Positions 2,460-50,641 of a stretch of DNA of 64,000 nt are shown one piece after another. This DNA comes from Demequina mangrovi (GTDB taxonomy: Bacteria > Actinomycetota > Actinomycetes > Actinomycetales > Demequinaceae). The notes below the pieces were generated by a model. The model saw nothing but the letters and a program-made list of their open reading frames with translations, had not been told where the DNA came from and did not search any database. The translations under genes and the position numbers were made by a program. Within the stretch, counting starts at the first letter, position 1. Every line of letters begins with the position of its first letter. The stretch is taken from positions 1-64,000 of the forward strand of contig NZ_BBLU01000001.1 of NCBI RefSeq assembly GCF_000759715.1, in the 5' to 3' direction.

Positions 2460-3902
2460 TTACGCCTGCGCGCGCTCCTCGAGGAAGCGGAACAGGGTGC
2501 GGAGCGAGTGTCCGGTCGAGCCGGCGACGTTCTCGGCCCACGGCTTGCCCTCGTTGTACGACGGGCGCGCGATGTCGAGGTGCGCCCACGGGGTGTCGCC
2601 CACGAACTCGCGCAGGAAGATGCCGGCCGACAGCATGCCGCCGCCCTGCGGGTCGCCGATGTTCTGCAGGTCCGCGATCTTCGAGTCGATCGACTCGCGC
2701 AGGTGCTCGGGCAGGGGCATCGCCCACATGGCCTCGTCGACCTCGTTCGCGCGGGCCACGATCTCGTCGCGGATCTCCGCGGTGCCCATGACGCCCGAGG
2801 TGCGGGTGCCGAGCGCGACGCCCTGCGCGCCCGTGAGGGTCGCGACGTCGAGCAGCACGTCGGGGTTCTCCTCGCGCGCCTTGACGAGGCCGTCGGCCAT
2901 GACCAGGCGGCCCTCGGCGTCGGTGTTGAGCACCTCGACGGTCTGGCCGCCGTAGATGCGGATGACGTCGGAGGGGCGCTGCGCGGTGCCCGAGGGCATG
3001 TTCTCCGCGATGCAGAGCCAGCCGGTGACGGCGATGGGCAGCTCGGCGCGGGCGGCCGCGACCACGGTGTGGAGCACGGTGGCGGCGCCGGTCATGTCGG
3101 ACTTCATGGTCTCCATCGACTTCGACGGCTTGAGCGAGATGCCGCCGGTGTCGAAGGTGATGCCCTTGCCCACGAGCGCCACGGTCTGCGACGCGCCCTC
3201 GGGCTTGTAGGACAGGCGCACGAGGCGCGGCAGGCGGGCCGAGCCCATGCCGACCGCGAGGATGCCGCCGAAGCCCTCGTTGGCGAGGCGCTGGGCGTCC
3301 CACGTCTCGACCTCGATGCCGACCTGCGCGCCGAGCTGCTCGGCGATCTCGGCGAACGACCCGGGGAACAGGTCGAGCGGCGGGGTGTTGACGAGGTCGC
3401 GGATGCCTGCGGCGGCGGCGACGAGGACCTCGGCGCGCGCGAGCGCGGCGTCCGACGCGCCGGCGATCACCCATGCGGTGTCGGTGGCGGCGTCCTCGGC
3501 GGACTTGTAGTCGGTGAAGGCGTAGGCGCCGAGCACGGCGCCCTGGGTGATCGCGATCGCGTCCTCGTCGGAGGAGATCGGGAGCGCGACGATGACGGTC
3601 GACGGCTTCTTGCCGACCTGGCGCGAGGCCTCTCCGGCGGCGGTGCGGAGGTCCGCGTCCGAGCCCGAGCCGATGCCGACGACGACGACGCGGCGGGCTT
3701 CGGTGCCGGCTCCCGGCACGACGGTGACCTTGCCGGCCTTCGAGGAGGCGTCGAGGAGCGAGGCGCCCGCGGCGATGGTCTCGCGCGCCTCGTCGGAGAG
3801 CAGCGGGTGCGCTGCGACGGCGTCGTCCGCGGTCCAGCCGACGATGATGGCGTCGGCCTCGAGGGACGCGACCTGATCCTGGGTGGTGGTGATGGAGGTC
3901 AT
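2460..3902 (-). CDS. pepA: Leucyl aminopeptidase (M17 family)
   Basis: A 480-aa M17 dimetal aminopeptidase that removes N-terminal residues from peptides in the cytoplasm. The N-terminal macro-like domain is residues 1-160 and the catalytic domain is C-terminal. The metal and active-site motifs GKGITFDTGG and NTDAEGRL are intact, as is GGGMLSAGIFLREF near the end. Length is typical. The start at 3902 is supported by TAGGCT placed 7 nt upstream of the ATG with no ribosome site, suggesting a leaderless mRNA. It is divergent from pyrD across only 32 bp. Confidence 0.95.
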   Translation of the reverse strand: MTSITTTQDQVASLEADAIIVGWTADDAVAAHPLLSDEARETIAAGASLLDASSKAGKVTVVPGAGTEARRVVVVGIGSGSDADLRTAAGEASRQVGKKPSTVIVALPISSDEDAIAITQGAVLGAYAFTDYKSAEDAATDTAWVIAGASDAALARAEVLVAAAAGIRDLVNTPPLDLFPGSFAEIAEQLGAQVGIEVETWDAQRLANEGFGGILAVGMGSARLPRLVRLSYKPEGASQTVALVGKGITFDTGGISLKPSKSMETMKSDMTGAATVLHTVVAAARAELPIAVTGWLCIAENMPSGTAQRPSDVIRIYGGQTVEVLNTDAEGRLVMADGLVKAREENPDVLLDVATLTGAQGVALGTRTSGVMGTAEIRDEIVARANEVDEAMWAMPLPEHLRESIDSKIADLQNIGDPQGGGMLSAGIFLREFVGDTPWAHLDIARPSYNEGKPWAENVAGSTGHSLRTLFRFLEERAQA

Positions 3903-24677: not shown

Positions 24678-26405
24678 TCAGCCCGCTTCGCGGCGGGTGA
24701 GCGGCCGCGCGTCGCGATCCGCCCGACGGGCCTCGACCCAGCGGGCGTGCCGCCCCGCGCCCGCGACGGGGCTCGACCATTCGCCGTCGACGTAGAGCAA
24801 CCGTGTGCGCGGGTCCTCGATCCATCGTGCGACCAGCTCGCGCTCCTCGACGAGCACGTCGTCGTCGACGTCGAGCGCCGCGGTGAGCCCGCGGAGCCGG
24901 TCGGCCGCGTCCCACACCTTCTCGCCGACGCGTGCGCTGCCCGCGAGCGTGCCGCGGCGGAAGGCGGCCACGTCCCACACGTCGCCGTCGCGGCGTACGG
25001 CGACGATCGAGCAGCGGGTGAGCGAGGCGAGCCGCTGCGCCCGCATGGCCCCGTCGACCACGGCGCTCACGCCGTCGCGGAGCTCGGCCGCGCGCTCGTA
25101 GTCGAGCGCCTCGGCCCGTTCCGCGATCTGACGCGCGAGGGCGCTCACCACGGGGCTCGGGTCCTCGTGGAGCGCGCTGCGCATCGCGGCGGCGGTGGCG
25201 TCGTAGCCGGACTCCGCGCCGAGCACGCATGGTGCGGCGCATGCGCCGAGGTCCTTGAGCAGGCATGCGCGGGCGTTGGCGCGCGGGGTGATCGGCAGGC
25301 GCGTGGTGCAGGTCCTCACCCCGAGGGCGCTCTGCACGGCCTCGATCGCGAGCCGGGCGTCGGAGGCCGAGCGCATGGGCCCGAGCGAGCCCTCGGGCCC
25401 CGTGACGGCGCGTGACACGGCCAGCCGCGGGTAGCGCTCGTCCGTGATCCGGACCCAGGGGGTGCGCTCGGGGCGCGCGGAACGACGGTTGTACCGGGGA
25501 CGATGCTCGGCGATGAGGCGGACCTCGCGCACGTTGGCCTCGAGCTCGGTCGCGCACACGACGGTGTCGACGTCGACGGCGAGCTCGAGCATGTCGCGCA
25601 CCGAGCGACGCTGCTCGCCGGTGGTGAAGTAGGACTTCACCCGCGACCGCAGGTTCTTCGACGTGCCGACGTAGAGCCGTTCGCCGCGTGGTCCGCGGAA
25701 GACGTAGACGCCCGGCTTGGCCGGCACGCGGTCGGCCATCGACGCCTTCTTGCGGATGCGTTCGGGCATGGGGTTGCGGAGCGCCTCAAGGTCCTCGCGG
25801 TGCGTGATGCCGAAGGCCGCGACGCGCTCGAGCATGCGGTGGAGGATCTCCGAGGTCGCTCGGGCGTCCTCGAGCGCACGGTGGTTCGGCTCGACCACGG
25901 TGCCGAACACGCGCGCGAGCGTCGACAGCTTCTTGTTCGGGGCCTCCTCCTTGGTGGTCGCGCGCCGCGCGAGGGTGACCGTGTCGACCACCTGGTTGCC
26001 GGGCCATCGGTAGCCGTGCGCGCGGCACGCTGCCCGGAGGAACCCGGTGTCGAACGGCGCGTTGTGCGCGACCAGCACCGCGTCCCCGAGGAACTCGAGG
26101 AAGGACGGCAGCACCTCCTCGATGCGGGGGGCCGCCACCACCATCGCGTCGGTGATCCCGGTGAGGGCGACGATGAACGGGGGGATCGGGGAGCCCGGGT
26201 CGATGAGCGTCTGGAACTCGCCGATCACCTCGCCGCCGCGCGTCTTGACCGCGCCGATCTCCGTGATCCCGGCGCGATCAGGCGACGTGCCGGTGGTCTC
26301 GAGGTCGACCACCACGAACGTGGTCCGGTGGAGCGGCTCGCCGACGTCCTCAAGGGTGCGCTGCTGGTGGAGCAGCTGCTCGACGGTCTCGGCGGGGGAG
26401 GTCAC
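24678..26405 (-). CDS. DEDDh exonuclease with UvrC-like GIY-YIG nuclease domain
   Basis: A 575-aa two-nuclease protein. Residues 20-190 form a DnaQ-like 3'-5' exonuclease (VVVDLETTGTS, VAHNAPFDTGFLRAAC, HRALEDARATSEI). Residues about 210-300 form a GIY-YIG domain (KPGVYVFRGPRGERLYVGTS, LEANVREVRLI) followed by a UvrC-like Cys-containing and UVR-like region. This fused DEDD exonuclease is conserved in actinobacteria and may act in repair (Cho-like). The start is GTG at 26405, 6 nt after TACCGT; the longer frame is not supported. Confidence 0.85.
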   Translation of the reverse strand: MTSPAETVEQLLHQQRTLEDVGEPLHRTTFVVVDLETTGTSPDRAGITEIGAVKTRGGEVIGEFQTLIDPGSPIPPFIVALTGITDAMVVAAPRIEEVLPSFLEFLGDAVLVAHNAPFDTGFLRAACRAHGYRWPGNQVVDTVTLARRATTKEEAPNKKLSTLARVFGTVVEPNHRALEDARATSEILHRMLERVAAFGITHREDLEALRNPMPERIRKKASMADRVPAKPGVYVFRGPRGERLYVGTSKNLRSRVKSYFTTGEQRRSVRDMLELAVDVDTVVCATELEANVREVRLIAEHRPRYNRRSARPERTPWVRITDERYPRLAVSRAVTGPEGSLGPMRSASDARLAIEAVQSALGVRTCTTRLPITPRANARACLLKDLGACAAPCVLGAESGYDATAAAMRSALHEDPSPVVSALARQIAERAEALDYERAAELRDGVSAVVDGAMRAQRLASLTRCSIVAVRRDGDVWDVAAFRRGTLAGSARVGEKVWDAADRLRGLTAALDVDDDVLVEERELVARWIEDPRTRLLYVDGEWSSPVAGAGRHARWVEARRADRDARPLTRREAG

Positions 26406-26557
26406 CCGACGACGGTACGACGCGCCTCCGACATCGGCTTGCGGCGCCCGGCGCACCAGGCATGACGTTGCGATGTCAGACCCCGTCCCTACCGTCGGAG
26501 GCATAGGGATCGACACGGATCCCTCACCAGGGCAGGGCCGGAGAGAAGGGAGCAGCC

Positions 26558-26758
26558 ATGCTGATCGACTGCGACTCGTGCGAGATGCGCGGGAAGAGCT
26601 GCGGCGACTGCGTCGTCTCGTTCCTCACCATCGAGGTGCGACCGACGGACCGGTCGACCGTCGAGCTGGACGAGGAGCAGGCGCACGCGCTCGACGCGCT
26701 GTCCGCCGGCGGCCTCGTCCCACCGCTCCGGCTGGTGCAGCCGCCGCGCGCCTCGTGA
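26558..26758 (+). CDS. Small CxxC-N5-CxxC protein, 66 aa
   Basis: A 66-aa protein beginning MLIDCDSCEMRGKSCGDC. Cys5, Cys8, Cys14 and Cys17 form a compact CxxC-N5-CxxC motif able to bind Zn or an Fe-S cluster. The remainder is acidic and helical (DEEQAHALDALSAGG). Related short proteins are widespread in actinobacteria, but I know of no function. AGAAGGGAG lies before the ATG. It has its own terminator-like hairpin. Confidence 0.7.
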   Translation: MLIDCDSCEMRGKSCGDCVVSFLTIEVRPTDRSTVELDEEQAHALDALSAGGLVPPLRLVQPPRAS

Positions 26759-26808: not shown

Positions 26809-28266
26809 TCAGCGGGCGGCGCCGTGGCGACGCAGCACCGTGCCGTCGGGGTCGTAGGACATCCGGATCGTGTCGAGCCGGTCGTGCGCGGTGCCCACGA
26901 GGGACTCCTCGTCGACCGGGTGCTCGACGAAGTTCGCGTACTGCTGCGCGCCGGTCCACGGTGCGAGCGCGCCCAGGGCGAGCCCGACCATCGTGCCCGC
27001 GGCGTCGAGATCCGCGACCGGTGTGACCGGGGCCACCGCGACCGCGGCGACGGCGCCCGCGAGGCCGGTGAGCGCCGCGTCGGAACCCGCGGAGGGGTCG
27101 AGCGCGCCGCCGAGCTGGCGGAGGTCGGCGGCCACCACGCCCGCGCAGGGCGCGCTGTCGAGCGCGGCGATCCAGGCGTCGATGGCGGAGTCGTCGAGCG
27201 AGCGCAGGAGCAGGCCCTCCGCAGCGCCCGCCGACGGGTCCGGCGGGTCCATCGCGAGATGACCGAGCGCCTCTGGACCGGCCTCGGCGAGATCGTCCAT
27301 CACGGGGTCCAGCGCCCGCAGCGGCGCGAGCAGGCGGTCCGCGAACGCGGCCGTGCCGACCGCCGCGACCTGCACCAGCACCATCCGGGCCCCGCGCAGG
27401 TGGGGCGGGAGGTCGGCGATGTCGGGGAAGCGCAGGACCCGCGCGACCGTGGTGATCTCGCGCGGCAGGGAGGGGAGGAGGCGTGCCCAGGCCTTGAGCA
27501 CCTCAGCGGCGCGCTCGTGCGGCCACCACAGGGAGCCCGCGACCAGCTCGGGGACCTCGACCAGGCGGAGCGTGAGCTCCGTGACCACGCCCGCGCCGCC
27601 GCCGCCGCGCAGCGCCCACCACAGGTCGGCGTGCTCCGAGGGGGAGGCGATCACCACAGCGCCGCCGGGCAGCACCACGCGCGCGGCGAGGATCGAGCCC
27701 GCCCCGAGGCCATGGAGACGGCCGAGCCAGCCGAGCCCGCCCCCGAGGCAGTAGCCCACGACCCCGACGGTGCGCGAGGAGCCGGCGAGACCGGCGAGCC
27801 CGTGCGGCGCGGCGGCGTCGGCGACGTCGCCCCAGGTCGCACCCGCGCCGACGGTCACCGTCCGCGCGGACACGTCGAGCGTGACCGACGCGAGCGCGCT
27901 CGTGCGCAGCAGGATCGCCCCGTCGAGGTCCCCGAGCGCCACGGCCCCGTGGCCGGACGACTGCGGCGCGACCCTGAGGCCCAGGCGGGTCGCGAGCCGC
28001 ATCGTGCGGGCGACGTCGGACTCGCTGCGGGCGAGCACCACCGCGACCGGGCGCTGGTCGACGCCGAGCTGCCACGCGGCGCGAGCCGCGTCCCAGTCGG
28101 GGTCCGCCGGGCGGACGAGGTCGCCGTCGAGCAGGAGCGTGAGCTCGTCGAGCGCGGCGCTGAGCGCCGTGCCGACGACCCCGCTCGCGAGCGTCGTGCG
28201 GCGGGGGTTGGAGAGCGTGGTGAGCGCGGGCTCGGGCAGGTCGGGCGCATCGGTGGACAGGGACAT
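26809..28266 (-). CDS. FAD-dependent oxidoreductase, berberine-bridge-enzyme (BBE) type
   Basis: A 485-aa oxidase of the PCMH/BBE family. The FAD-binding half shows QSSGHGAVALGD, whose His106 matches the covalent FAD-linking His, and VGYCLGGGLGWLGRLHGL. The second covalent Cys of bicovalent members is Ser here (AGSSRTVG). The C-terminal BBE domain ends HDRLDTIRMSYDPDGT. No secretion signal is seen. The substrate is unknown; relatives oxidise sugars, alkaloids or peptide-linked groups. The start is ATG at 28266 after CCGGAGG. It shares a 5' region with the PVGARFPR-repeat gene just upstream, which suggests co-regulation. Confidence 0.85.
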   Translation of the reverse strand: MSLSTDAPDLPEPALTTLSNPRRTTLASGVVGTALSAALDELTLLLDGDLVRPADPDWDAARAAWQLGVDQRPVAVVLARSESDVARTMRLATRLGLRVAPQSSGHGAVALGDLDGAILLRTSALASVTLDVSARTVTVGAGATWGDVADAAAPHGLAGLAGSSRTVGVVGYCLGGGLGWLGRLHGLGAGSILAARVVLPGGAVVIASPSEHADLWWALRGGGGAGVVTELTLRLVEVPELVAGSLWWPHERAAEVLKAWARLLPSLPREITTVARVLRFPDIADLPPHLRGARMVLVQVAAVGTAAFADRLLAPLRALDPVMDDLAEAGPEALGHLAMDPPDPSAGAAEGLLLRSLDDSAIDAWIAALDSAPCAGVVAADLRQLGGALDPSAGSDAALTGLAGAVAAVAVAPVTPVADLDAAGTMVGLALGALAPWTGAQQYANFVEHPVDEESLVGTAHDRLDTIRMSYDPDGTVLRRHGAAR

Positions 28267-28320
28267 GTCGGGAACCTCCGGGTCGGATTCGAGATCATGC
28301 TGTCCCTGTCCGATTCGTCC

Positions 28321-28370
28321 CGCCAGACCCGAGTTGTGGTGCCACCCGCGCGGGGGGCAAAGGGCACGCG
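28321..28370 (-). promoter_or_regulatory. Shared upstream element, copy B (FAD oxidase)
   Basis: TTGTGGTGCCAC (28334-28345) and GGGGCAAAGGGCACGCG (28354-28370), 20 bp start to start on the plus strand, lie about 70-105 bp upstream of the oxidase ATG. Copy A before the PVGARFPR gene is identical in the 12-mer and differs at one base in the 17-mer. The CCGACCCGGAGG ribosome site is also shared. Confidence 0.7.
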
Positions 28371-28385
28371 ATGCCGCCGACCATG

Positions 28386-28423
28386 ACGATGCCCGCCGCC
28401 CCCGAGAGGGCTGCGGGCATCGT
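28386..28423. terminator. Terminator of the PVGARFPR-repeat gene
   Basis: A perfect 11-bp stem, ACGATGCCCGC with GCGGGCATCGT, plus an inner GCCC/GGGC pair, 26 bp past the stop of the minus-strand gene and upstream of element B. Confidence 0.85.
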
Positions 28424-28448
28424 GAGGGCGGACGCAGGTCCGCGCGTG

Positions 28449-28745
28449 TCAGCGGGGGAAGCGGGCGCCCACCGGTCGCGGCCGCACGGCGAGCTCCGGC
28501 ACCAGCGCGACCGTGAGCGCCGCCCGCTGCTCGGGCGAGAGCCGCGGGAAGCGGGCGCCCACCGGGTGGAGCGGACGCAGCGCCCGGCGGTACACCCGGA
28601 CGATGCGGGTCGGGGTCCACGCGCCGCGCGGGAAGCGGGCGCCCACGGGTGCGGGTCGCACGCTCTCGCGGATCACGGGCGGCTCGGCGGTGACGGTCGC
28701 GGGGATCGTGTCGGATGCTGCGGTGCTGCTGATGAGGTAAGGCAT
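28449..28745 (-). CDS. Small protein with three PVGARFPR repeats, 98 aa
   Basis: A 98-aa protein that I do not recognise. The octapeptide PVGARFPR occurs at residues 33-40, 61-68 and 91-98, the last ending the protein. Spacers of 20 and 22 residues are unrelated to each other and rich in Arg, Pro and Ala. The first 30 residues (MPYLISSTAASDTIPATVTA) are neutral and not a clear signal peptide. The repeats share a 20-bp DNA block that is the same except at one base in one copy. GGAGG lies 7 nt before the ATG. It has its own promoter element and terminator and lies upstream of the FAD oxidase gene. It could be a peptide precursor or a multivalent binding protein; this is unproven. Confidence 0.7.
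   Translation of the reverse strand: MPYLISSTAASDTIPATVTAEPPVIRESVRPAPVGARFPRGAWTPTRIVRVYRRALRPLHPVGARFPRLSPEQRAALTVALVPELAVRPRPVGARFPR
28456..28649. repeat. Three copies of a 20-bp repeat inside the 98-aa gene
   Basis: GGGAAGCGGGCGCCCACCGG at 28456-28475 and 28546-28565, and the same with one base change at 28630-28649. They encode PVGARFPR on the minus strand. Identity at wobble positions suggests recent duplication or a nucleic-acid role. Confidence 0.85.
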
Positions 28746-28798
28746 GGTGTTCCTCCGGGTCGGTTGTGGCTCCAGATTCCGACCGACCGTGCGAACCG

Positions 28799-28847
28799 GA
28801 CAGCCCCGACTTGTGGTGCCACTACCCCTGGGGGCATAGGGCACGCG
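28799..28847 (-). promoter_or_regulatory. Shared upstream element, copy A (PVGARFPR gene)
   Basis: Plus-strand GACAG (28800-28804), CCGAC, TTGTGGTGCCAC (28811-28822), CCCCTGGGGG and GGGGCATAGGGCACGCG (28831-28847) lie 54-102 bp upstream of the 98-aa gene. Copies B and C keep the 20-bp distance from TTG to GGGGCA. The CCCC-N-GGGG core is a plausible site for a LuxR-type dimer. Confidence 0.7.
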
Positions 28848-28878
28848 GTGCACCATGCCCCCAGGGATGCCGGACGGA

Positions 28879-30672
28879 CTACCGCGGGGAGGGCGCGTAG
28901 AGCGCGTCGACGTCCGCCGCGAAGTCGCGCAGCACCTGGGCCCTCTTGACCTTGAGCGACGGCGTGAGGTGGCCGGCCTCGACGGTGAAGTCGTCGGCCA
29001 GGATCTCCCAGCGCCGGATCGACTCGGCGCGCGAGACCGCGGCGTTCGCCCTGGTGACGGCCTTCTCGAGGTGCTCGCGGACCACCGGGTGCGCCGCGGC
29101 CTCGGCCACGGGCATGTCGGGGAGGCCGTGGCTGGTGAGCCACCCGGGCAGCGCCTCCGCATCGAGCGTGAGGAGCGCGCCGATGAACGGCCTGCCGTCG
29201 CCGACGACGACGCACTGGCTCACCAGCGCGTACCCGCGGAGGCGGTCCTCGAGAGTCGCCGGCGCGACGTTCTTGCCGCCGGCGGTCACGATGATCTCCT
29301 TCTTGCGACCGGTGATGTAGAGGTAGCCGTCCTCGTCGAGGCGCCCGATGTCGCCGGTGCGGAACCAGCCGTCCTGCATGGCCTCGGCCGTCGCCTCGGG
29401 GTTGCGGTGGTAGCCCTGGAAGAGCATGTCGCCGCGCATGAGGATCTCGCCGTCGTCGGCGATCGTCACGTCGAAGCCGGGCAGCGCGGGTCCCACCGAG
29501 CCGATCTTGGAGCGCTCGACCACGTTGACGTGCGCGGCCGCGGTGACCTCGGTGAGGCCGTAGCCCTCGAGCACCAGGAGGCCGAGCCCGCGGTAGAAGT
29601 GCCCCAGCCGGTCGCCGAGCGGCGCGGAGCCCGAGATCGCGTGGACCGCGCGGCCGCCGAGCACGGCGCGGATCTTCGCCAGCACCAGGCGGTCCGCGAG
29701 GGCGTGCTTCGCCTTGAGCGCGAGCGACGGCCCTTCGGGCGTGTCGAGCGCCTGCGAGTACGCGATCGACTGCTGCGCGGCCCAGCGGAAGATCTTCACC
29801 TTGCCGCCCGCCGCGGCCTTCTGCTCGGCGGCGTTGTAGACCTTCTCGAAGACGCGGGGCACGGCGAGCACCAGCGTGGGCTGGAAGCTCGCGAAGTACG
29901 GCACCAGCTTCTTCGAGTCGGGGCAGAAGCCGATCACGGTGCCGGACGCGAGCAGCACCACCTCGACGAGGCGCGCGAGCGAGTGCGCGAGCGTGAGGAA
30001 CAGCACCGTGCTGCCGCCCTCACGCAGGACGACCTCGGGGATCTGCTGCTGGATGCCGGCGGTGTGCCGGACGAAGTTGAAGTGGGTGAGCACCGCGCCC
30101 TTGGGCCGGCCGGTGGTGCCCGACGTGTAGACGATGGTCGCGGGGGAGTCGAGCGTCGCGAGCGCGGCGCGCTCGGCGACCACCGAGTCGGGGATCCCGG
30201 CGCCGGCCGCGCGGAGGTCGTCCATGCAGCCCCGGTCGATCACGAGGACGTCGCGCAGCGGGCTCTCGGGGTCGCTCGCGACCTGGTGGGCGAGCGCGGC
30301 GTGCGCCTCGGTCTCGACGACGAGCAGCGAGACCTCGGCGTCCGAGGTGATCCAGTCGATCTGCGACGCCGAGGAGGTGTCGTAGATGGGGACCGGCAGC
30401 GCGCCCGCCGTCCAGATCGCCAGGTCGAGCACGGTCCACTCGATGCGCGTGCGCGCCATGATGCCGACGCTCTGCCCGGGCTGGACGCCGCGCGCGATGA
30501 GGCCCTTGGCGACCGCGTCGACCATGGCCTGCGCCTCGGCGCCGGTGACGTCGATCCAGCGGTCGTCGTCGTCGGTGTACCTCATCACCACCTCGTCGGC
30601 ACGGGTGCGCCAACGCGCCGCGATCATGGCGACGATGTTGGGTGCGAGGTCGGTGGGAGCAGGCTGGATCAT
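28879..30672 (-). CDS. fadD: Long-chain fatty acid-CoA ligase (AMP-forming)
   Basis: A 597-aa adenylate-forming enzyme that activates fatty acids to acyl-CoA at the membrane. The P-loop YTSGTTGRPKG, the EGYGLTEVT motif, DGWFRTGDIG and the hinge region ITGRKKEIIVTAGGKNVAP are all present. Length is as in actinobacterial FadD15-type ligases. AGGAG lies 8 nt before the ATG. It is divergent from a glucokinase and next to an acyltransferase, which together suggest lipid precursor supply. Confidence 0.93.
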   Translation of the reverse strand: MIQPAPTDLAPNIVAMIAARWRTRADEVVMRYTDDDDRWIDVTGAEAQAMVDAVAKGLIARGVQPGQSVGIMARTRIEWTVLDLAIWTAGALPVPIYDTSSASQIDWITSDAEVSLLVVETEAHAALAHQVASDPESPLRDVLVIDRGCMDDLRAAGAGIPDSVVAERAALATLDSPATIVYTSGTTGRPKGAVLTHFNFVRHTAGIQQQIPEVVLREGGSTVLFLTLAHSLARLVEVVLLASGTVIGFCPDSKKLVPYFASFQPTLVLAVPRVFEKVYNAAEQKAAAGGKVKIFRWAAQQSIAYSQALDTPEGPSLALKAKHALADRLVLAKIRAVLGGRAVHAISGSAPLGDRLGHFYRGLGLLVLEGYGLTEVTAAAHVNVVERSKIGSVGPALPGFDVTIADDGEILMRGDMLFQGYHRNPEATAEAMQDGWFRTGDIGRLDEDGYLYITGRKKEIIVTAGGKNVAPATLEDRLRGYALVSQCVVVGDGRPFIGALLTLDAEALPGWLTSHGLPDMPVAEAAAHPVVREHLEKAVTRANAAVSRAESIRRWEILADDFTVEAGHLTPSLKVKRAQVLRDFAADVDALYAPSPR

Positions 30673-42784: not shown

Positions 42785-42818
42785 AGGCGCCCTTCCCCGT
42801 CAGCGGGGGAGGGCGCCT
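42785..42818. terminator. Bidirectional terminator sigA / LAL regulator 1
   Basis: AGGCGCCCTTCCCC pairs with GGGGGAGGGCGCCT. The stop codon of the minus-strand regulator lies in the loop, so the upstream arm encodes its last residues (GALPR). Confidence 0.8.
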
Positions 42819-45730
42819 TCGTCGTGGCGGGCAGGGAGCGCCGCGAAGTAGGCGGCGGCCTCGGTGCGGTTCGCGGCGCCGATCTTCGCGAGGATCGCGG
42901 AGACGTGCACGCTCGCCGTCTTGCGCGAGATGAACAGCCGCTCGCCGATCTGGACGTTGGTGAGGCCCTCCGCCACCAGCGCGAGCACCTGGGCCTCGCG
43001 CGCGGTCAGCCCGGCGTCCGGGCGCGAGCTCCGATCGCCGTGCCCGAGGCGTGCGAGGAGCTCCCGCGCCCACCTCGCCACCAGGTCGACGCCGTCGGAC
43101 GGAGCCTCGCCGGCGACCCCGCGCACGTGCGCGATCGCCTCGTCGCGGCGCCCCGCATCGACCAGCGCCTCGCCGAGCCGCAGGCGCGCGAGATGGGCGT
43201 AGCGGCGGGGTGCGAGCCCAGCGGCGGAGGCCTCGTACGCGTCGTTCCATCGCCGCACCCGATCCGCCGGCTCCGCCAGATGCGCCGTGATGAGCGTGGT
43301 GACCGGCAGGTACGCCTCCTCCGAGTCGAGCATCGAGGCGAGCCGCCGCAGCCGGGCGGCGAGCTCCGGGCGCGGCTCGACGCCCGCCTCGCGGGCCGCC
43401 TCCACGAGCGCGGCTCCGGAGGCCATGAGGACGTCGAGGTCGCCCGGCGCATCCTCCGCCGCCTCGCGCTCGAGCGGATCGAGCAGCGGCAGCGCGGTCG
43501 CGAGGATGCGCTGCCCCTCGGCCGCGCGGGCGTCCCTGGCGGCGGCCACGGCGGCGTCGACCCGCATCATGTTCCACACGCCCGTCCATTGGAGATCCAG
43601 CTCGGCGTGCTCGACCACCGCCGGTTCGCGCGCGAGGAGCGCCTCGTAATCCTCGCGCCGGTCCGCCCAGATGAGTCCGAGGCCCTCGATCTGCACCGCG
43701 TTGAGCACCACCTGGATCGAGTCGCCCCGGGCGAGACGCACGGCGCGGCGCGCGGCCGCGAGCCCGTCCTCCACGCGACCCGCGCTGATGAACGCCTCGG
43801 CGGTGTTGCTCAGGATGTGCGCGCCGGCCCGCTCGCGTCCCGCATCGGCCGTCTGCTCGACGGCGGCCATGCCGAGCGCTATCGCGTCGTCGTAGCGACC
43901 CGCCTGGAGCAGGTCGCACACGAGGTTGTTGACCGCGAAGAGGCGCGTGTCGGTGGGCTCGGGGCACAGCTCGAGAACGCGGTCCAGGTCGGCGATGCTC
44001 GCGGCGACCGCGCCGATCGCCCAGCTGTTGCGGGCGCGCCACACCAGCACCTCGGCGAGCACGGCGTCGTCGCCCGTGCTCGCCGCGAGGGCCACCGCCT
44101 CGTCGAGCGCGTCCGAGCGGTGCGCGCCCCGGGACACCACGGATCGCCATCCGCGCGCCTGGGCCCGCCAGGCGGCTGTCGACGCGTCGTCGCGCCCCGC
44201 GAGGAGCCGGTCGATCTCATCGATGCGGACGGCCGCGTCGCCTCGCAGCTCCGTCTCGCTCGCCGCGCTCAGCTCGACGAGCAGCAGCGGTACCCGGGTG
44301 TCCGCGTCGTCGCGTGGGGCGGCCGCGAGGGCGGCGGCGGTGACCGCCAGGCACGCCCGCAGCCGGTGCGCGGAGTGGTAGCCCTTCGCGACCTGGAGAC
44401 GCAGCGCCGCCTCGTCGGTCCCGGCGCGCGCGGCGGCGTCCGGCACCTGGGGCCAGAGCTCGATGAGGCGCTCTCCCAGGCGGGCGGCGGTCTCCACGGG
44501 CAGCGACGCCCGCGCGTGCGCGAGGGCGTCGACCGTCGCGTCGAAGGACCGGGGGACGTCGCGCGCCGCGAGCCAATGCGCGGCCGCCGGTGCGGCCGCC
44601 GCGACGTCGCCCCGCTCGACCCGCGCCTGCATCGTCTCCGCGAAGCGCCGGTGCGTCTCCTCCCGCTCGTGCGGCAGGAGACGCTCGTACACGGCCTCCC
44701 TGATGAGGGCGTGGCGGAACACGTACCCTTCGGCCTCCGCGGTGAGGACATGGCCGTCGTGGGCCGCGCGCAGCCCGGTCGCGAGAGCGGCCGCGGTCCC
44801 GTGCCACGCGCCCGCGAGCGATGCATGGTCCAGCCGCGCACCGCCGACGGCCGCGACGCGCACGACCTCCTGCGCCTCGGGCCCGAGCCGCTCGACCCCG
44901 GCGAGGACCACCTCACGGAGCGTGCGGGGCAGCTCGCCGTCGGGGATCCCGAGCAGCTCCTCGACGAAGAACGGGACGCCCTCGGAGCGGCGCTCGAGGA
45001 CGTCGACCTCGACCTCGGTGGGGGAGCGGTCGAGGATCTGGCGTGCGTGCGCCGCGATCGAGGCACGGTCGAGGCGTGCCATGTCGACGGTGGTGACCGC
45101 GCGGCTGCGCTGCAGCTCCGCGAGGGTCTCGCGCAACGCGGGCCCGCGGTCGACGTCGTCGGTCCTGAAGGTCATGACCACGGTGAGGCGAGACCCGCGC
45201 AGCGTGGTCGCGAGCGTCCGGAGCAGCGCGAGCGTCGCCGCGTCGGCCCAGTGGATATCCTCGACCACGAGGACCACGTGCGTGCTCTCGGTCAGGCCCT
45301 CGACGAGACGCTCGACCGCGTCGGCGAGCCAGTCCGAGCCGGAGACAGGCGGGGGCGCCGCCGCGTCGTCCCCGATCTCGGGGACCAGGGCGGCGAGCGC
45401 GTGCAGCGTCACCTCGCGGCCTGCGGCCGCACGGAAGGCGGCGTCGCCGACCGCGGCATGCAGGTCTCGCAGCAGGCGGCGCACAGGGACGAGCGGCGCT
45501 CCCACCGGGCCGAGGTCGATGCAGTGGCTCACCGCCGTCACCCGGGGGGCGTCGTCCGCCGCGGGCCGGGCCAGGGCCTCGTGCACGAGCCTGCTCTTCC
45601 CGATGCCCGCCTCGCCCCGCACGAGCACCGCGCGCGGCTCTCCTGCTGCGCCGTCCGCGAGAGCGTCCGCGAGAGTGCCCAGCTCGGCGGCTCTTCCCAC
45701 CATCGCGGCGGACATCGGGGCGGCGCTCAT
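42800..45730 (-). CDS. LuxR-family large ATP-binding (LAL) regulator 1
   Basis: A 976-aa STAND-type transcription regulator. Walker A GEAGIGKS is at about 39-46 and Walker B VVLVVEDIHWAD near 155. A long helical TPR-like middle follows, and the C-terminal LuxR helix-turn-helix (LTAREAQVLALVAEGLTN, ISRKTASVHVSAILAKIG) occupies the last 75 residues. Such proteins activate transcription when an inducer and ATP bind. ATG at 45730 is the best start just before SAAPMSAAMVGRAAEL; ATG at 45715 is an alternative. It lies 71 bp downstream of the 67-aa gene, which carries the shared promoter element, so self-activation is possible. Confidence 0.88.
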   Translation of the reverse strand: MSAAPMSAAMVGRAAELGTLADALADGAAGEPRAVLVRGEAGIGKSRLVHEALARPAADDAPRVTAVSHCIDLGPVGAPLVPVRRLLRDLHAAVGDAAFRAAAGREVTLHALAALVPEIGDDAAAPPPVSGSDWLADAVERLVEGLTESTHVVLVVEDIHWADAATLALLRTLATTLRGSRLTVVMTFRTDDVDRGPALRETLAELQRSRAVTTVDMARLDRASIAAHARQILDRSPTEVEVDVLERRSEGVPFFVEELLGIPDGELPRTLREVVLAGVERLGPEAQEVVRVAAVGGARLDHASLAGAWHGTAAALATGLRAAHDGHVLTAEAEGYVFRHALIREAVYERLLPHEREETHRRFAETMQARVERGDVAAAAPAAAHWLAARDVPRSFDATVDALAHARASLPVETAARLGERLIELWPQVPDAAARAGTDEAALRLQVAKGYHSAHRLRACLAVTAAALAAAPRDDADTRVPLLLVELSAASETELRGDAAVRIDEIDRLLAGRDDASTAAWRAQARGWRSVVSRGAHRSDALDEAVALAASTGDDAVLAEVLVWRARNSWAIGAVAASIADLDRVLELCPEPTDTRLFAVNNLVCDLLQAGRYDDAIALGMAAVEQTADAGRERAGAHILSNTAEAFISAGRVEDGLAAARRAVRLARGDSIQVVLNAVQIEGLGLIWADRREDYEALLAREPAVVEHAELDLQWTGVWNMMRVDAAVAAARDARAAEGQRILATALPLLDPLEREAAEDAPGDLDVLMASGAALVEAAREAGVEPRPELAARLRRLASMLDSEEAYLPVTTLITAHLAEPADRVRRWNDAYEASAAGLAPRRYAHLARLRLGEALVDAGRRDEAIAHVRGVAGEAPSDGVDLVARWARELLARLGHGDRSSRPDAGLTAREAQVLALVAEGLTNVQIGERLFISRKTASVHVSAILAKIGAANRTEAAAYFAALPARHDEGALPR

Positions 45731-45764
45731 CCCCCCATGGTGCCTGAGCGCCACCCCGATGGCG

Positions 45765-45787
45765 AGGCCTTCGATGACGGAAGGCCT
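45765..45787. promoter_or_regulatory. Perfect hairpin AGGCCTTC-N7-GAAGGCCT upstream of LAL regulator 1
   Basis: 8-bp arms at 45765-45772 and 45780-45787, between the 67-aa gene stop and the regulator start. It could be an attenuating hairpin or an operator; no T-run follows on the minus strand. Confidence 0.45.
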
Positions 45788-45801
45788 GGTAGGCGCCTGC
45801 G

Positions 45802-46005
45802 TCAGGCGTACGCCCGGCGGATGGCCGAGGCGCGACGCGCGGCGCGGACGGGGTGGGCGAGCCAGGCGCGGAGACGCGCGGCGAGCGGCTCGCGGGGCGT
45901 GTCCGCGCCGATCGCGGCGAGCTGCGCGCGGCGCTCCTCGACGCGACGGTCGAGGTCCATGCGCTCGGTCTGGCGGTACATGGCGTTCATGCCGAAGTCG
46001 TTCAT
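45802..46005 (-). CDS. Small basic protein, 67 aa
   Basis: A 67-aa protein starting MNDFGMNAMYRQTERM. The first half is amphipathic and charged (DLDRRVEERRAQLAAIG); the second is strongly basic (AARLRAWLAHPVRAARRAS). No membrane span or known domain is seen. GGGGAGGA lies about 6 nt before ATG 46005. The upstream DNA carries copy C of the element shared with the FAD oxidase and PVGARFPR genes. LAL regulator 1 follows after 71 bp. Function unknown; its position suggests a LAL target. Confidence 0.65.
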   Translation of the reverse strand: MNDFGMNAMYRQTERMDLDRRVEERRAQLAAIGADTPREPLAARLRAWLAHPVRAARRASAIRRAYA

Positions 46006-46041
46006 GAGGGTCCTCCCCGTCGGGGCCGGAGGTTCCGGCGT

Positions 46042-46096
46042 CCTGACAGGACCGACGTTGCCCCCTAAGGCCCCGGCGGGGCATCGGGTGGATGCC
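46042..46096 (-). promoter_or_regulatory. Shared upstream element, copy C (67-aa gene)
   Basis: Plus-strand GACAGGACCGACGTTG (46045-46060), CCCCGGCGGGGCATCGGG (46071-46088). TTG (46058) to GGGGCA (46078) is 20 bp, as in copies A and B. It lies 40-90 bp upstream of the 67-aa gene, and its far half lies within the 3' end of the symporter gene. Confidence 0.6.
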
Positions 46097-47638: not shown

Positions 47639-50600
47639 TCAGCGCCTGCCGTGCTCCGAGAACCACGCGGCGGCCTCGGCCCGGTTGGCGGCCCCGACCT
47701 TGGCGAGGATCGCGGACACGTGCACGCTCGCGGTCTTGGGGGCGATGTGCAGACGTGCTCCGATCTGCGGGTTGGTGAGGCCGCCCGCGACGAGTGCGAG
47801 GACCTCCTGCTCGCGGCTCGTGAGCGAGTCGAGGGGTGAGCGCGTCTCCTCGCGGCGCACGAGGGCGGCGGCCGCCCAGCCTCCGACCAGCGACGCGCCG
47901 TCCGCGCCGGCGTCCCTGGCGACCTCGGCGAGCATCGTCTCCGCGGTGCGCCGGTCGCCCGCGCGACGCAGCGCGAGGGCGAGGCGCAGGCGCGACTCGT
48001 GGACGAGTCGGCGGGGCGAGCGGCCGGCGCCGCACGCGTCGACCGCCCTCCGCCATCGGTCGACGTCGTCGGGCCCCGCGAGCAGCGCGTCCACGAGCGC
48101 GCGGACATGGGCGGTCGCGGGGTGATCGGGCTGGGTGTCCCGCAGCGCGACGGCGCGGTCGACCAGCGCCGCGTCGTCGGGGACGCGTGCGGCCCGCGCG
48201 GCCGCGATGGCGCGGCACGTCGCGAGGAGGAGCATCGCCGCCGCGCTCGGGTCGCGGACCGCCTCGGGGTGGAGCAGCATCGCAGCGGCCCGAGACGCGT
48301 CGTCGAGGAGCCGGGACGCCTCCGCCGGCGGCGCGGCCGCCCGACGGGCGAGCGCGAGGTCGACGGTGAGCGCCGCCGCGTTGAACGCTCCCTCGGCGTC
48401 GTCCTCGGGATCCGGGAGCAGCGGCGCCTCCGCCGCCAGCAGCTCCGCCGCGCGGTCGAGGTGGCCGTCCCACAGCGCCGCCACGGCCTCGATCTCGAGA
48501 AGGAAGCACTCCCACCGCGGCGACTCCCCGCGCAGCAGCGTGGAGGCGCGGCGCACGTGCACCAGCGCCTCGTCGAGGCGGCCGGCGTTGACGAGGGCCT
48601 CGGCGACGTTCGCGGTGATCGGGGCGCCGATGCGGCGCTCGAGCCCGACGTCGATCGCATCGGTGATCGCGGACTCTCCGGCCTCGACCGCGTCGTCGTA
48701 GCGCCCGAGGCGGTTGAGGGTGTCGACGATGTTGGCGGTGGCGCAGCGGCCCCACAGCATCGCGCCCTCGTCGATCGCGAGCGCATGGTCGAGATCGGCG
48801 AGCGCGGCCTCGTACTCGCCGTCCCGCGCCCGGACGGTCGAGCGCTTGCACAGCGCCATCGAGAGGATCGACGGGTCCCCGGAGGTCGCCGCGAGGTCGA
48901 CCACCTCGTCGGAGACACGCATGGCCGTGACGCGATCGACGAGGTGGGCGCTGAGCGCCCGCGCCTGCACCAGGTAGGGCAGCGCCGCCGCGTCGGTGCG
49001 GCCGCGCAGCAGCGTCTCGATGGGCTCGACGTGCACGGCGGCGGCCGCCGCGCCCACATGCTCGGAGGCGAGGGACATCGCGGCGGCGTGCAGGCGCGCC
49101 CGCTCGAGCTCGGCCCCGCGCTCGGGAGCGGTCGCGAGCGCCGCGTCGATCGCCCGCATCGCGGCATGCATCTGGCCGGAGTCGCGCAGGTCCTCGGCGA
49201 TCCGGCAGCGGATCGCGAGCGCCGACGCGTCGGCGCGCGCCTCGGGGTCGGGGACCTCGTCCCACAGCTCGAGCAGCTGCTCGCCGAGCCGCGCGGCGGA
49301 GGCCATCGCGTACTGCGCGCGTGCGCCGGCGAGCGCCAGCACCGTCGCGTCGAACGCGCGACCGGGTTCGCCGGCCGCCCGCCAATGGTGTGCGGCGCCG
49401 GCCGCGAGGTCGCGGCGTCCGTCGTCGACGAGCCCCTGGAGCAGGAGCGCGAGCCGCGCATGCGCGGTCGCGCGCTCCCGAGGCATGAGCGTCGCCTGGA
49501 CCGCCTCGCGCAGCAGCGCATGGTGGAACGCGAGCGCGGTGCCGTCGGCCCGAATCGCGCCCGCGCCGAGGGCCTCCTCGAGGCCCCTCCTGAAGTCGGC
49601 GGGCCTCCCGGCCCAGGCGCGTGCGAGCAGCTCCTCGTCGACGCCGTCGGCGGCGACGCTGAGGAGGCGGGCCACGGCGCGCGCCGCGGTGCCCAGCCGC
49701 TCGTACCGCGCGAGCACGATGTCCTCGAGGGTGCCGGTGAGCCGCGCATCGGGGGAGAGGACCAGCTCCTCGACGAAGAGCGGGACGCCCTCGGAACGCT
49801 CCTCGATCGCGTGCACGGTGGCGGCGTCCGGCTCCGCCCCGGTGAGCCGGCGTATCTGCTCGGCGACCTCGTGCCTGTCGAGCCTGCCGACGTCGACGGT
49901 GCTGATCGCGCGGTTGCGCTCGAGCTCGGCGACCGTCGCGCGCAGGGGATGGCCGGTGCGGACGTCGTCGGCGCGGTACGTGAGGAGGAGCGTGAGGCGG
50001 CTGCCGCGGAGCGTCGCGCCCAGCGTGCGCACCAGGCCCCTCGTCGCATCGTCCGCCCAGTGGAGGTCCTCGAGCACCAGCACCAGGTGGTGGTCGACGG
50101 ACAGGCGCTCGAGGACGCGCTCGACGGCCTCGGCGACGTAGTCGACGCCCGTGGCGGGCGGCGCGTCGGCGCCGTCGTCGAGCTCGGGCACCAGCCGTGC
50201 GAGGGTCGCGCGCACCCGCGGGCTGCCCGCGGCGTCGCCCAGCGCGTCGACCCCGACCTCGAGCGCGAGCTCGTGGAGCAGCCGACGCACCGCACCGTAC
50301 GGCGCTCCCACCGGTCCCGACTCGACGCAGGTTCCGGTGGCGATCACGGTGTCCGGCATCGCCCTCGCGCGGTCGAGCAGCTCGCGGACCAGGCGCGACT
50401 TGCCGATGCCGGCCTCCCCGCGCACGATCACGGCCGACGGGGCGCCGTCCGCTCCCGCGTCGAGCGCGTCCACGAGCGTCGAGAGCTCCCGCTCCCGCGC
50501 GACGAGCACGGGGGACTCGCGCAGAGGGAGGCCCCCCGCGGGCCCGGTGACCCGACCGGGCCCGGCGGCCCAGGTGTCGCGGCGGCGCGACCAGGACCCG

Positions 50601-50641
50601 GGCGGTGTCGGCCCGGTCCGGCGCGGCGCTTCGGACACCAT
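47639..50641 (-). CDS. LuxR-family large ATP-binding (LAL) regulator 2
   Basis: A 1000-aa paralogue of LAL regulator 1 with the same design. Walker A GEAGIGKS is at 75-82, Walker B LVLVLEDLHWAD follows about 110 residues later, then come a TPR-like middle and a C-terminal LuxR helix-turn-helix (LTSREQEVLALVAGGLTN, KTASVHVSAILAKVG). The helix-turn-helix closely matches that of regulator 1, so the DNA sites may overlap. The N-terminus before residue 45 is poorly supported; a GTG near 50509 is an alternative start. Its inducer is unknown. It is separated from regulator 1 by the symporter gene. Confidence 0.87.
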   Translation of the reverse strand: MVSEAPRRTGPTPPGSWSRRRDTWAAGPGRVTGPAGGLPLRESPVLVARERELSTLVDALDAGADGAPSAVIVRGEAGIGKSRLVRELLDRARAMPDTVIATGTCVESGPVGAPYGAVRRLLHELALEVGVDALGDAAGSPRVRATLARLVPELDDGADAPPATGVDYVAEAVERVLERLSVDHHLVLVLEDLHWADDATRGLVRTLGATLRGSRLTLLLTYRADDVRTGHPLRATVAELERNRAISTVDVGRLDRHEVAEQIRRLTGAEPDAATVHAIEERSEGVPLFVEELVLSPDARLTGTLEDIVLARYERLGTAARAVARLLSVAADGVDEELLARAWAGRPADFRRGLEEALGAGAIRADGTALAFHHALLREAVQATLMPRERATAHARLALLLQGLVDDGRRDLAAGAAHHWRAAGEPGRAFDATVLALAGARAQYAMASAARLGEQLLELWDEVPDPEARADASALAIRCRIAEDLRDSGQMHAAMRAIDAALATAPERGAELERARLHAAAMSLASEHVGAAAAAVHVEPIETLLRGRTDAAALPYLVQARALSAHLVDRVTAMRVSDEVVDLAATSGDPSILSMALCKRSTVRARDGEYEAALADLDHALAIDEGAMLWGRCATANIVDTLNRLGRYDDAVEAGESAITDAIDVGLERRIGAPITANVAEALVNAGRLDEALVHVRRASTLLRGESPRWECFLLEIEAVAALWDGHLDRAAELLAAEAPLLPDPEDDAEGAFNAAALTVDLALARRAAAPPAEASRLLDDASRAAAMLLHPEAVRDPSAAAMLLLATCRAIAAARAARVPDDAALVDRAVALRDTQPDHPATAHVRALVDALLAGPDDVDRWRRAVDACGAGRSPRRLVHESRLRLALALRRAGDRRTAETMLAEVARDAGADGASLVGGWAAAALVRREETRSPLDSLTSREQEVLALVAGGLTNPQIGARLHIAPKTASVHVSAILAKVGAANRAEAAAWFSEHGRR

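Follow-up and report, generated by a model that had tools for sequence, protein, structure and literature searches.

The REP locus

The window analysed here is a stretch of 64,000 nucleotides from Demequina mangrovi. At its centre of interest is a small minus-strand gene, here called REP, whose reading frame runs from an ATG at 28745 to a stop at 28449 and encodes a 10.75-kDa protein of 98 residues. The features of the locus are listed below, the gene names being those suggested by resemblance.

28449..28745 (including the stop), minus strand: REP, a 98-residue orphan protein with three PVGARFPR motifs (open reading frame, orthologues and purifying selection)
28626..28649, minus strand: octapeptide copy 1, residues 33-40 ([VI]GARF in six of six species)
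28542..28565, minus strand: octapeptide copy 2, residues 61-68 ([VI]GARF in six of six species)
28452..28475, minus strand: octapeptide copy 3, residues 91-98, the C-terminus ([VI]GARF in six of six species)
28752..28756, minus strand: ribosome-binding site of REP, GGAGG (kept ahead of the start codon in all six species)
28801..28820, minus strand: conserved cis element (putative operator) of REP, GGCACCACAAGTCGGGGCTG (14-genome search, site alignment)
28324..28343, minus strand: the same cis element ahead of the oxidase gene, GGCACCACAACTCGGGTCTG (14-genome search, site alignment)
28381..28428, minus strand: hairpin between REP and the oxidase gene, a possible T-less terminator (inverted repeat and fold)
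28826..28866, minus strand: hairpin between fadD and the REP element, a possible fadD terminator (inverted repeat; fold of 28822-28880, z -4.75)
26809..28266, minus strand: partner gene, a 485-residue FAD-binding oxidase, PF01565 (Pfam, solved-structure and NCBIfam comparison)
28879..30672, minus strand: fadD-like acyl-CoA ligase, a conserved flank outside the pair (synteny; name from sequence resemblance)
26558..26758, plus strand: conserved small protein of 66 residues, the flank on the other side (synteny; no Pfam match)
24678-26516, minus strand: by eye, a DnaQ-like exonuclease joined to a nuclease domain of UvrC type
42803-46084 and 47642-50641, minus strand: two LAL-type regulators, AAA_16 plus LuxR HTH (domain matches)

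As an earlier note on this DNA had described, PVGARFPR occurs in three exact copies, separated by spacers of 20 and 22 residues, with the last copy forming the C-terminus. The same note's description of the underlying DNA also holds, in that the 20-base stretch GTGGGCGCCCGCTTCCCNCG lies beneath each copy with one position variable among the copies. A 5-mer occurring three times was seen in 3 of 20,000 shuffles of the REP protein, and three exact octamers would be expected by chance more rarely still. Upstream of the start the open frame extends further in the window genome, and in two of the related genomes (G006 and G042) it amounts to only 122 codons. The ribosome-binding site and start are kept in all six species that have the gene, G010 and G014 having a shorter and different N-terminus.

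The six REP proteins have 90-98 residues, including 14-20 arginines, and contain no lysine and no cysteine; the two orthologues for which it was computed have a pI of 12.0 and a charge of about +10. The AlphaFold2 model of REP is poor (mean pLDDT 65, pTM 0.38). It predicts strands at residues 24-30, 46-58 and 77-83, one ahead of each motif, and a fold search with the model gave no match (best E 1.2). The model is too weak to tell a fold from disorder. Outside the octapeptide, the three units have no detectable similarity to each other, the lowest shuffle fraction being 0.083 among 18 comparisons.

Conservation of the octapeptide

REP orthologues are found in six of 47 Demequinaceae genomes at E below 1e-10, all of them in the genus Demequina: the window genome (G000), G006, G010, G014, G019 and G042. 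This count leaves out all matches with E 5.7e-4 or worse, which were taken as chance; at E up to 1, matches are found in 37 of the 47. The proposal that this multicopy-repeat frame is real is thus borne out by homologues with conserved repeats in related genomes.

The centre of the octapeptide is [VI]GARF, with GARF unchanged in all 18 copies from the six species. Deviations elsewhere are few: the preceding proline is alanine in three copies, the following proline is arginine or alanine in three, and the last arginine is histidine in two. The spacing of the repeats is constant in all six species, at 27-28 and then 30 residues, and the third octapeptide is followed by no residue in four species and by one residue in two.

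Conservation of the motif is at the protein level. The rate of nonsynonymous difference (pN) is 0.03-0.18 in the repeats versus 0.16-0.60 in the spacers, and is lower in the repeats for all 15 species pairs, with a small gap in the G006/G042 pair (0.13 versus 0.18). The synonymous rate (pS) has no consistent difference, being lower in the repeats for eight pairs and higher for seven. Across the six species, the variable codon positions within the octapeptides are 18 of 24 third positions, 7 of 24 first positions and 2 of 24 second positions. Together with the low pN of the repeats, this pattern implies that selection acts on the peptide. On these comparisons REP is a genuine protein-coding gene, and the repeats are its conserved part.

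The earlier note had drawn attention to the identity of the repeats even at wobble bases. This is true of the window genome, and is mostly specific to it. For the 15 nucleotides under [VI]GARF, the three copies differ from one another at 0, 0 and 0 positions in the window genome and at 0-1 in G019, compared with 2, 3 and 5 in G006, 2, 2 and 3 in G042, 3, 3 and 2 in G010, and 0, 3 and 3 in G014, these counts including V/I changes; G006, G042 and G010 do not have such nearly identical copies. We take the wobble identity to reflect the codon usage of a high-GC genome and not a DNA element. Codons diverging at random among the repeats of close relatives had been suggested as a sign against the gene; the codons do diverge, yet GARF stays constant, which makes the divergence evidence for a protein.

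Gene order and distribution

In all six genomes with REP the gene order is fadD, REP, flavin oxidase, the 66-residue gene and the exonuclease-UvrC gene, so that the position of REP directly upstream of an FAD oxidase, pointed out from the window, is common to all six. REP is present only together with this oxidase: it is found in six of the 10 genomes with an orthologue of the oxidase and in none of the 37 without (E below 1e-10). The other four (G008, G018, G023 and G024) have the orthologous oxidase, with more than 70% identity and in the same place, and lack REP.

A search with FadD returned 30 loci, of which nine were in other oxidase genomes already covered. Among the 21 that were inspected, one (L147, which is G024) has the oxidase; in the remaining 20 the 66-residue and UvrC genes come after FadD, and no match to the oxidase appears at E 1e-4. 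In the loci inspected, therefore, the oxidase and REP are extra genes that only part of the genus carries. In the genomes with REP, the interval from fadD to the 66-residue gene is filled by REP and the oxidase, with one additional ORF in G042; no protease, exporter or other maturation gene was recognised in the conserved REP locus.

Some further observations on the neighbourhood may be recorded. The extra frame in G042 (L034:11597-12640) has 348 codons, lies between the oxidase and the 66-residue gene, and is sulfotransferase-like by eye. One of the loci without the oxidase (L148, from G017) has about 0.9 kb of additional sequence between FadD and the 66-residue gene. The fusion of DnaQ-like and UvrC-like domains adjoins the locus in the Demequina loci inspected. 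The two large LAL genes lie close together, and are found at this place in some Demequina and missing in others.

It had been suggested that REP might be linked in genomes both to BBE-type flavin oxidases and to LAL regulators. Only the first linkage is found. The LAL genes are 14-22 kb from REP, and the equivalent region in the other five REP-bearing genomes contains LAL2 in G019, G010 and G014, LAL1 in G010 alone, and neither in G006 or G042. Both are thus missing near REP in two of the five, and a LAL-controlled regulon was rejected as far as linkage goes.

A cis element shared by REP and the oxidase gene

The oxidase gene was noted earlier to share the 5' region of REP, and this is confirmed, with 28319-28374 and 28796-28851 being 80% alike. 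Within these regions lies the 20-bp cis element. The element, as GGCACCRCAANTCGGGNCTG, was searched for, with up to two mismatches, in 14 genomes, comprising the 10 with an oxidase orthologue and four with only more distant oxidases. Exact sites number two in each of the six genomes with REP, one before REP and one before the oxidase, and one in each of the four genomes with the oxidase and no REP; the four genomes without an orthologous oxidase have none. One additional site with two mismatches is found in G019. The element read backwards, used as a control, gives 0-2 matches per strand per genome at equal tolerance, so only exact sites are counted. A looser scan of the window genome (18-mer, up to three mismatches) gave 14 matches, two of them exact, versus 41 for the backwards control, which makes loose matches uninformative. 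Sixteen sites were aligned. The shared element marks only REP and the oxidase in the genomes searched, and the two genes look like a regulon of their own.

REP had been credited with its own promoter element and terminator, and each of these claims stands in part. The conserved element at 28801-28820 is there, though nothing promoter-like came up in a simple sigma-70 scan. Similarly, REP is followed by a stable fold (28370-28448, -46.2 kcal/mol, z -3.1), which has no T-run and was not scored as an intrinsic terminator. Comparison with Rfam gave no match at the gathering cut-off.

The partner oxidase

The oxidase matches PF01565 with E 5.5e-22. Its closest solved structure by sequence is the mitomycin radical oxidase 9r43 (oxidase residues 51-475, E 5e-48), followed by EncM chains at E 1.2e-36 to 9.3e-36. 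An alignment of 19 sequences shows no variation at residues G105, H106, G168 and G171. The nearest NCBIfam models are far under their cut-offs (236 of 800 and 220 of 850 bits). The FAD-binding domain and the full-length similarity place the predicted enzyme among the mitomycin-radical-oxidase/EncM-like flavoenzymes. The likeness to mitomycin radical oxidase, EncM and 6-hydroxy-D-nicotine oxidase concerns the partner oxidase, by sequence; its neighbours here are housekeeping genes, unlike those of the mitomycin or enterocin clusters. Mitomycin radical oxidase re-oxidises the reduced drug. We know of no mitomycin radical oxidase or EncM-type member recorded with a small three-motif protein.

The 10 orthologues of the oxidase are acidic, with pI 4.69-5.19 and charge -14.5 to -20.6. 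No column of their alignment perfectly separates genomes with REP from those lacking it. There are 50 columns that are constant in the former and not in the latter, the highest of 80 comparable splits, a weak signal that follows the tree.

Flanks of about 1.5 kb were inspected beside more distant oxidases. Among 14 in Demequina there was no GARF repeat protein and one single GSRF match (L065); among 11 in other genera there were only low-complexity or short two-copy repeats (L113, L115 and L116). Several of the Demequina relatives, with about 40% identity (L061-L064 and L066-L069), share, by eye, an upstream dyad of another kind, CCCACANTTNTGGGG-like, and lie opposite an apparent divergent regulator gene.

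Apparent exchange of the REP coding sequence

The genes around REP in G019 (fadD, oxidase, UvrC, ROK and trpD) resemble those of G010 and G014, with 87-97% protein identity. Its REP protein, on the other hand, is 78% identical to that of G000 and 46-48% to those of G010 and G014; the figures for coding DNA are 81% versus 62-64%. The intergenic stretches on both sides of REP in G019 are 65-70% identical to G000 versus 75-83% to G010 and G014. In the REP tree G019 is split from G010 and G014 with support of 100/100, its pairing with G000 being unresolved, and in the oxidase tree it joins them with support of 96/96. The simplest reading is that the REP coding sequence may have been swapped between lineages without its immediate flanks, or else replaced in the G010/G014 line. 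Over 1.5 kb of fadD, G000 is nearer to G019 and G010 (87%) than to G006 and G042 (82-84%), and over the last 200 bases of fadD it is not nearer to G019 and G010; this pattern could mean more than one exchange. Genomes lacking REP fall on both sides of the oxidase tree, G008 on one and G018, G023 and G024 on the other, which makes more than one loss or gain probable.

Searches for relatives

The view that REP belongs to no described family was upheld, with no match in Pfam (E 0.01), NCBIfam, PHROGs or PADLOC. A profile search of the sequences of solved structures gave no match to REP, nor did phages and plasmids. Samples of the order and the class were also searched, with at most 12 candidates scored per genome. 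In the order sample, seven of 396 genomes gave a match, these being the six already known and G192, a weak match with internal stops; in the class sample, which overlaps it, three of 394 did, these being the window genome and two weak matches without GARF.

A strict DNA pattern for the motif was found in 21 of the 396 order genomes: the six, and 15 others with single sites, never two per genome and in unrelated frames, two of which are acyltransferase-like by eye. One strict [VI]GARFPR site in G046 lies inside a 44-codon open frame. The idea that the motif is a tag carried by other proteins was rejected, as no [VI]GARFPR (with CGN arginines) occurs outside REP in the six genomes that have it. 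In a scan of genome contigs at least 592 stretches match a pattern, and among the matches listed one encodes a relative, L031 from Demequina sp. SYSU T00192, which is the same locus as in G010.

Viral contigs gave one match, L172 (IMGVR_UViG_3300012933_000147), which was rejected as a REP homologue, being a repeat at the DNA level whose copies fall in different frames. Positions 2874-3120 are an intergenic array of CCCACTGGGTGCGCGG-like repeats, possibly operator sites, with ACCCAATGGGT-like palindromes nearby; by chance, translation of the array in one frame yields PVGARFPR-like peptides, and the copies that follow yield different ones.

GARFPR was not found in the open literature searched. 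Among the collections searched there is no convincing relative of REP outside Demequina. Small multi-motif proteins are known, and it is the motif of REP, the pairing with an oxidase and the shared control that appear new to us.

Possible functions of REP

Our tentative proposal, the likeliest of the readings though with the odds somewhat against it, is that REP, a strongly basic protein, acts inside the cell as an accessory to the co-regulated flavin oxidase, as a docking or clustering partner or as one that tunes it. Each P[VI]GARFPR would serve as a short recognition motif, fitting a docking site on the partner, in the simplest version with one oxidase subunit per motif. One REP chain would then cluster or tether up to three partner molecules, the spacers fixing the distance and being otherwise free to change. 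Since the cis element is common to REP and the oxidase alone, the oxidase, or its substrate, is the first candidate partner, and the effect would probably be to cluster the oxidase or tune its activity. Constant spacing of the motifs on a basic chain devoid of cysteine and lysine fits a predicted three-site binding protein, and we take the motifs to bind protein, not nucleic acid. No signal peptide is seen by eye, consistent with an intracellular location. The basic REP facing an acidic oxidase also counts for docking, although opposite charge is common and unspecific. Counting against it, the oxidase is kept without REP in four genomes, and no oxidase column separates the two groups.

The predicted strand ahead of each motif, with the constant spacing, could also belong to a small folded protein of three strand-plus-motif units, in which the octapeptides would be turns of the core and not binding sites. 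We consider this unlikely, though worth keeping in view: the model has low confidence and no structural match, and the spacers of the three units have no detectable mutual similarity.

Repetition of a short conserved peptide between variable spacers, with the last copy ending at the C-terminus or one residue short of it, is what might be expected of a multi-core precursor, from which three PVGARFPR-containing peptides would be cut as signals or antimicrobials, possibly after oxidation by the flavin enzyme. Multi-core RiPP precursors, of which dikaritins and cyanobactins are examples, are likewise encoded by small genes that repeat a short peptide several times and lie next to an oxidase. The oxidase with its common cis element suits such a pathway, and so does the apparent exchange of the coding sequence between lineages, a behaviour known for secreted or competitive factors. 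REP differs in that no leader or protease pattern was identified and in its constant spacing, which a precursor does not need. Further points against this are that no protease, exporter or maturation gene was recognised in the conserved locus, whose flanks are housekeeping genes; that the six proteins have no cysteine, and the motif no serine or threonine; that with no REP beside it in four of 10 genomes the oxidase is not an always-paired modifying enzyme; and that berberine bridge enzyme, RiPP and precursor peptide were not found together in the literature searched. The RiPP reading is unsupported, and a precursor of this kind is distinctly unlikely; the constant spacing, the lack of cysteine and the oxidases without REP lean towards docking.

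An improbable alternative is a nucleic-acid binder built like HMGA, whose three Arg/Pro motifs, strung on a flexible chain, would hold on to DNA or RNA, for instance to control the two-gene regulon to which it belongs. Eukaryotic HMGA proteins have about 100 residues, are basic, and carry three short conserved motifs with divergent linkers. As a comparison of how a protein might work, REP is similar in size, basicity (high pI, many arginines and no lysine), number of motifs and divergence of linkers; however, it is bacterial and has no sequence relationship to HMGA. Its motif, with a hydrophobic GARF centre, differs from the AT-hook core, PRGRP, and the spacing is constant; no family, AT-hook included, was matched in Pfam at E 0.01.

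The restriction of the shared element to REP and the oxidase in the genomes searched would also suit a regulator-binding or anti-activator protein, one that feeds back on the factor reading this element, but nothing links REP to that factor, and we regard this as quite improbable. A DNA-level repeat, that is a palindrome or recombination element open by chance, might be suspected from the nearly identical copies in the DNA of the window genome, from the palindrome GGGCGCCC and from the L172 intergenic repeat that translates to a PVGARFPR-like series, but is barely credible given the contradicting codon-position pattern and the conserved reading frame, ribosome-binding site and start.

It is worth adding that encapsulin cargo-loading peptides were also considered. 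Repeated targeting peptides are known for encapsulin cargo, and, like them, the REP motif is short, contains VG, and is C-terminal and repeated. The candidate was rejected, as PF04454 is found in none of the 10 oxidase-bearing genomes; the same search was positive in three of 14 control genomes.

A bolder pair of outcomes, which we hold to be doubtful though by no means fanciful, is that REP is either a new ribosomal peptide signal or antimicrobial, with three PVGARFPR cores, maturation by an EncM/mitomycin-oxidase-like enzyme and swapped alleles, or a trivalent scaffold that clusters the oxidase. Were the motifs released, the products would be peptides of a new class, with a flavin oxidase involved in making them. 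Were they to dock the oxidase instead, REP would be a natural scaffold of simple design, reusable for clustering enzymes. REP is a compact and testable case of a small protein restricted to one lineage: evolution alone reveals its functional units, three motifs held constant while the linkers drift, and the shared element connects it with just one enzyme.
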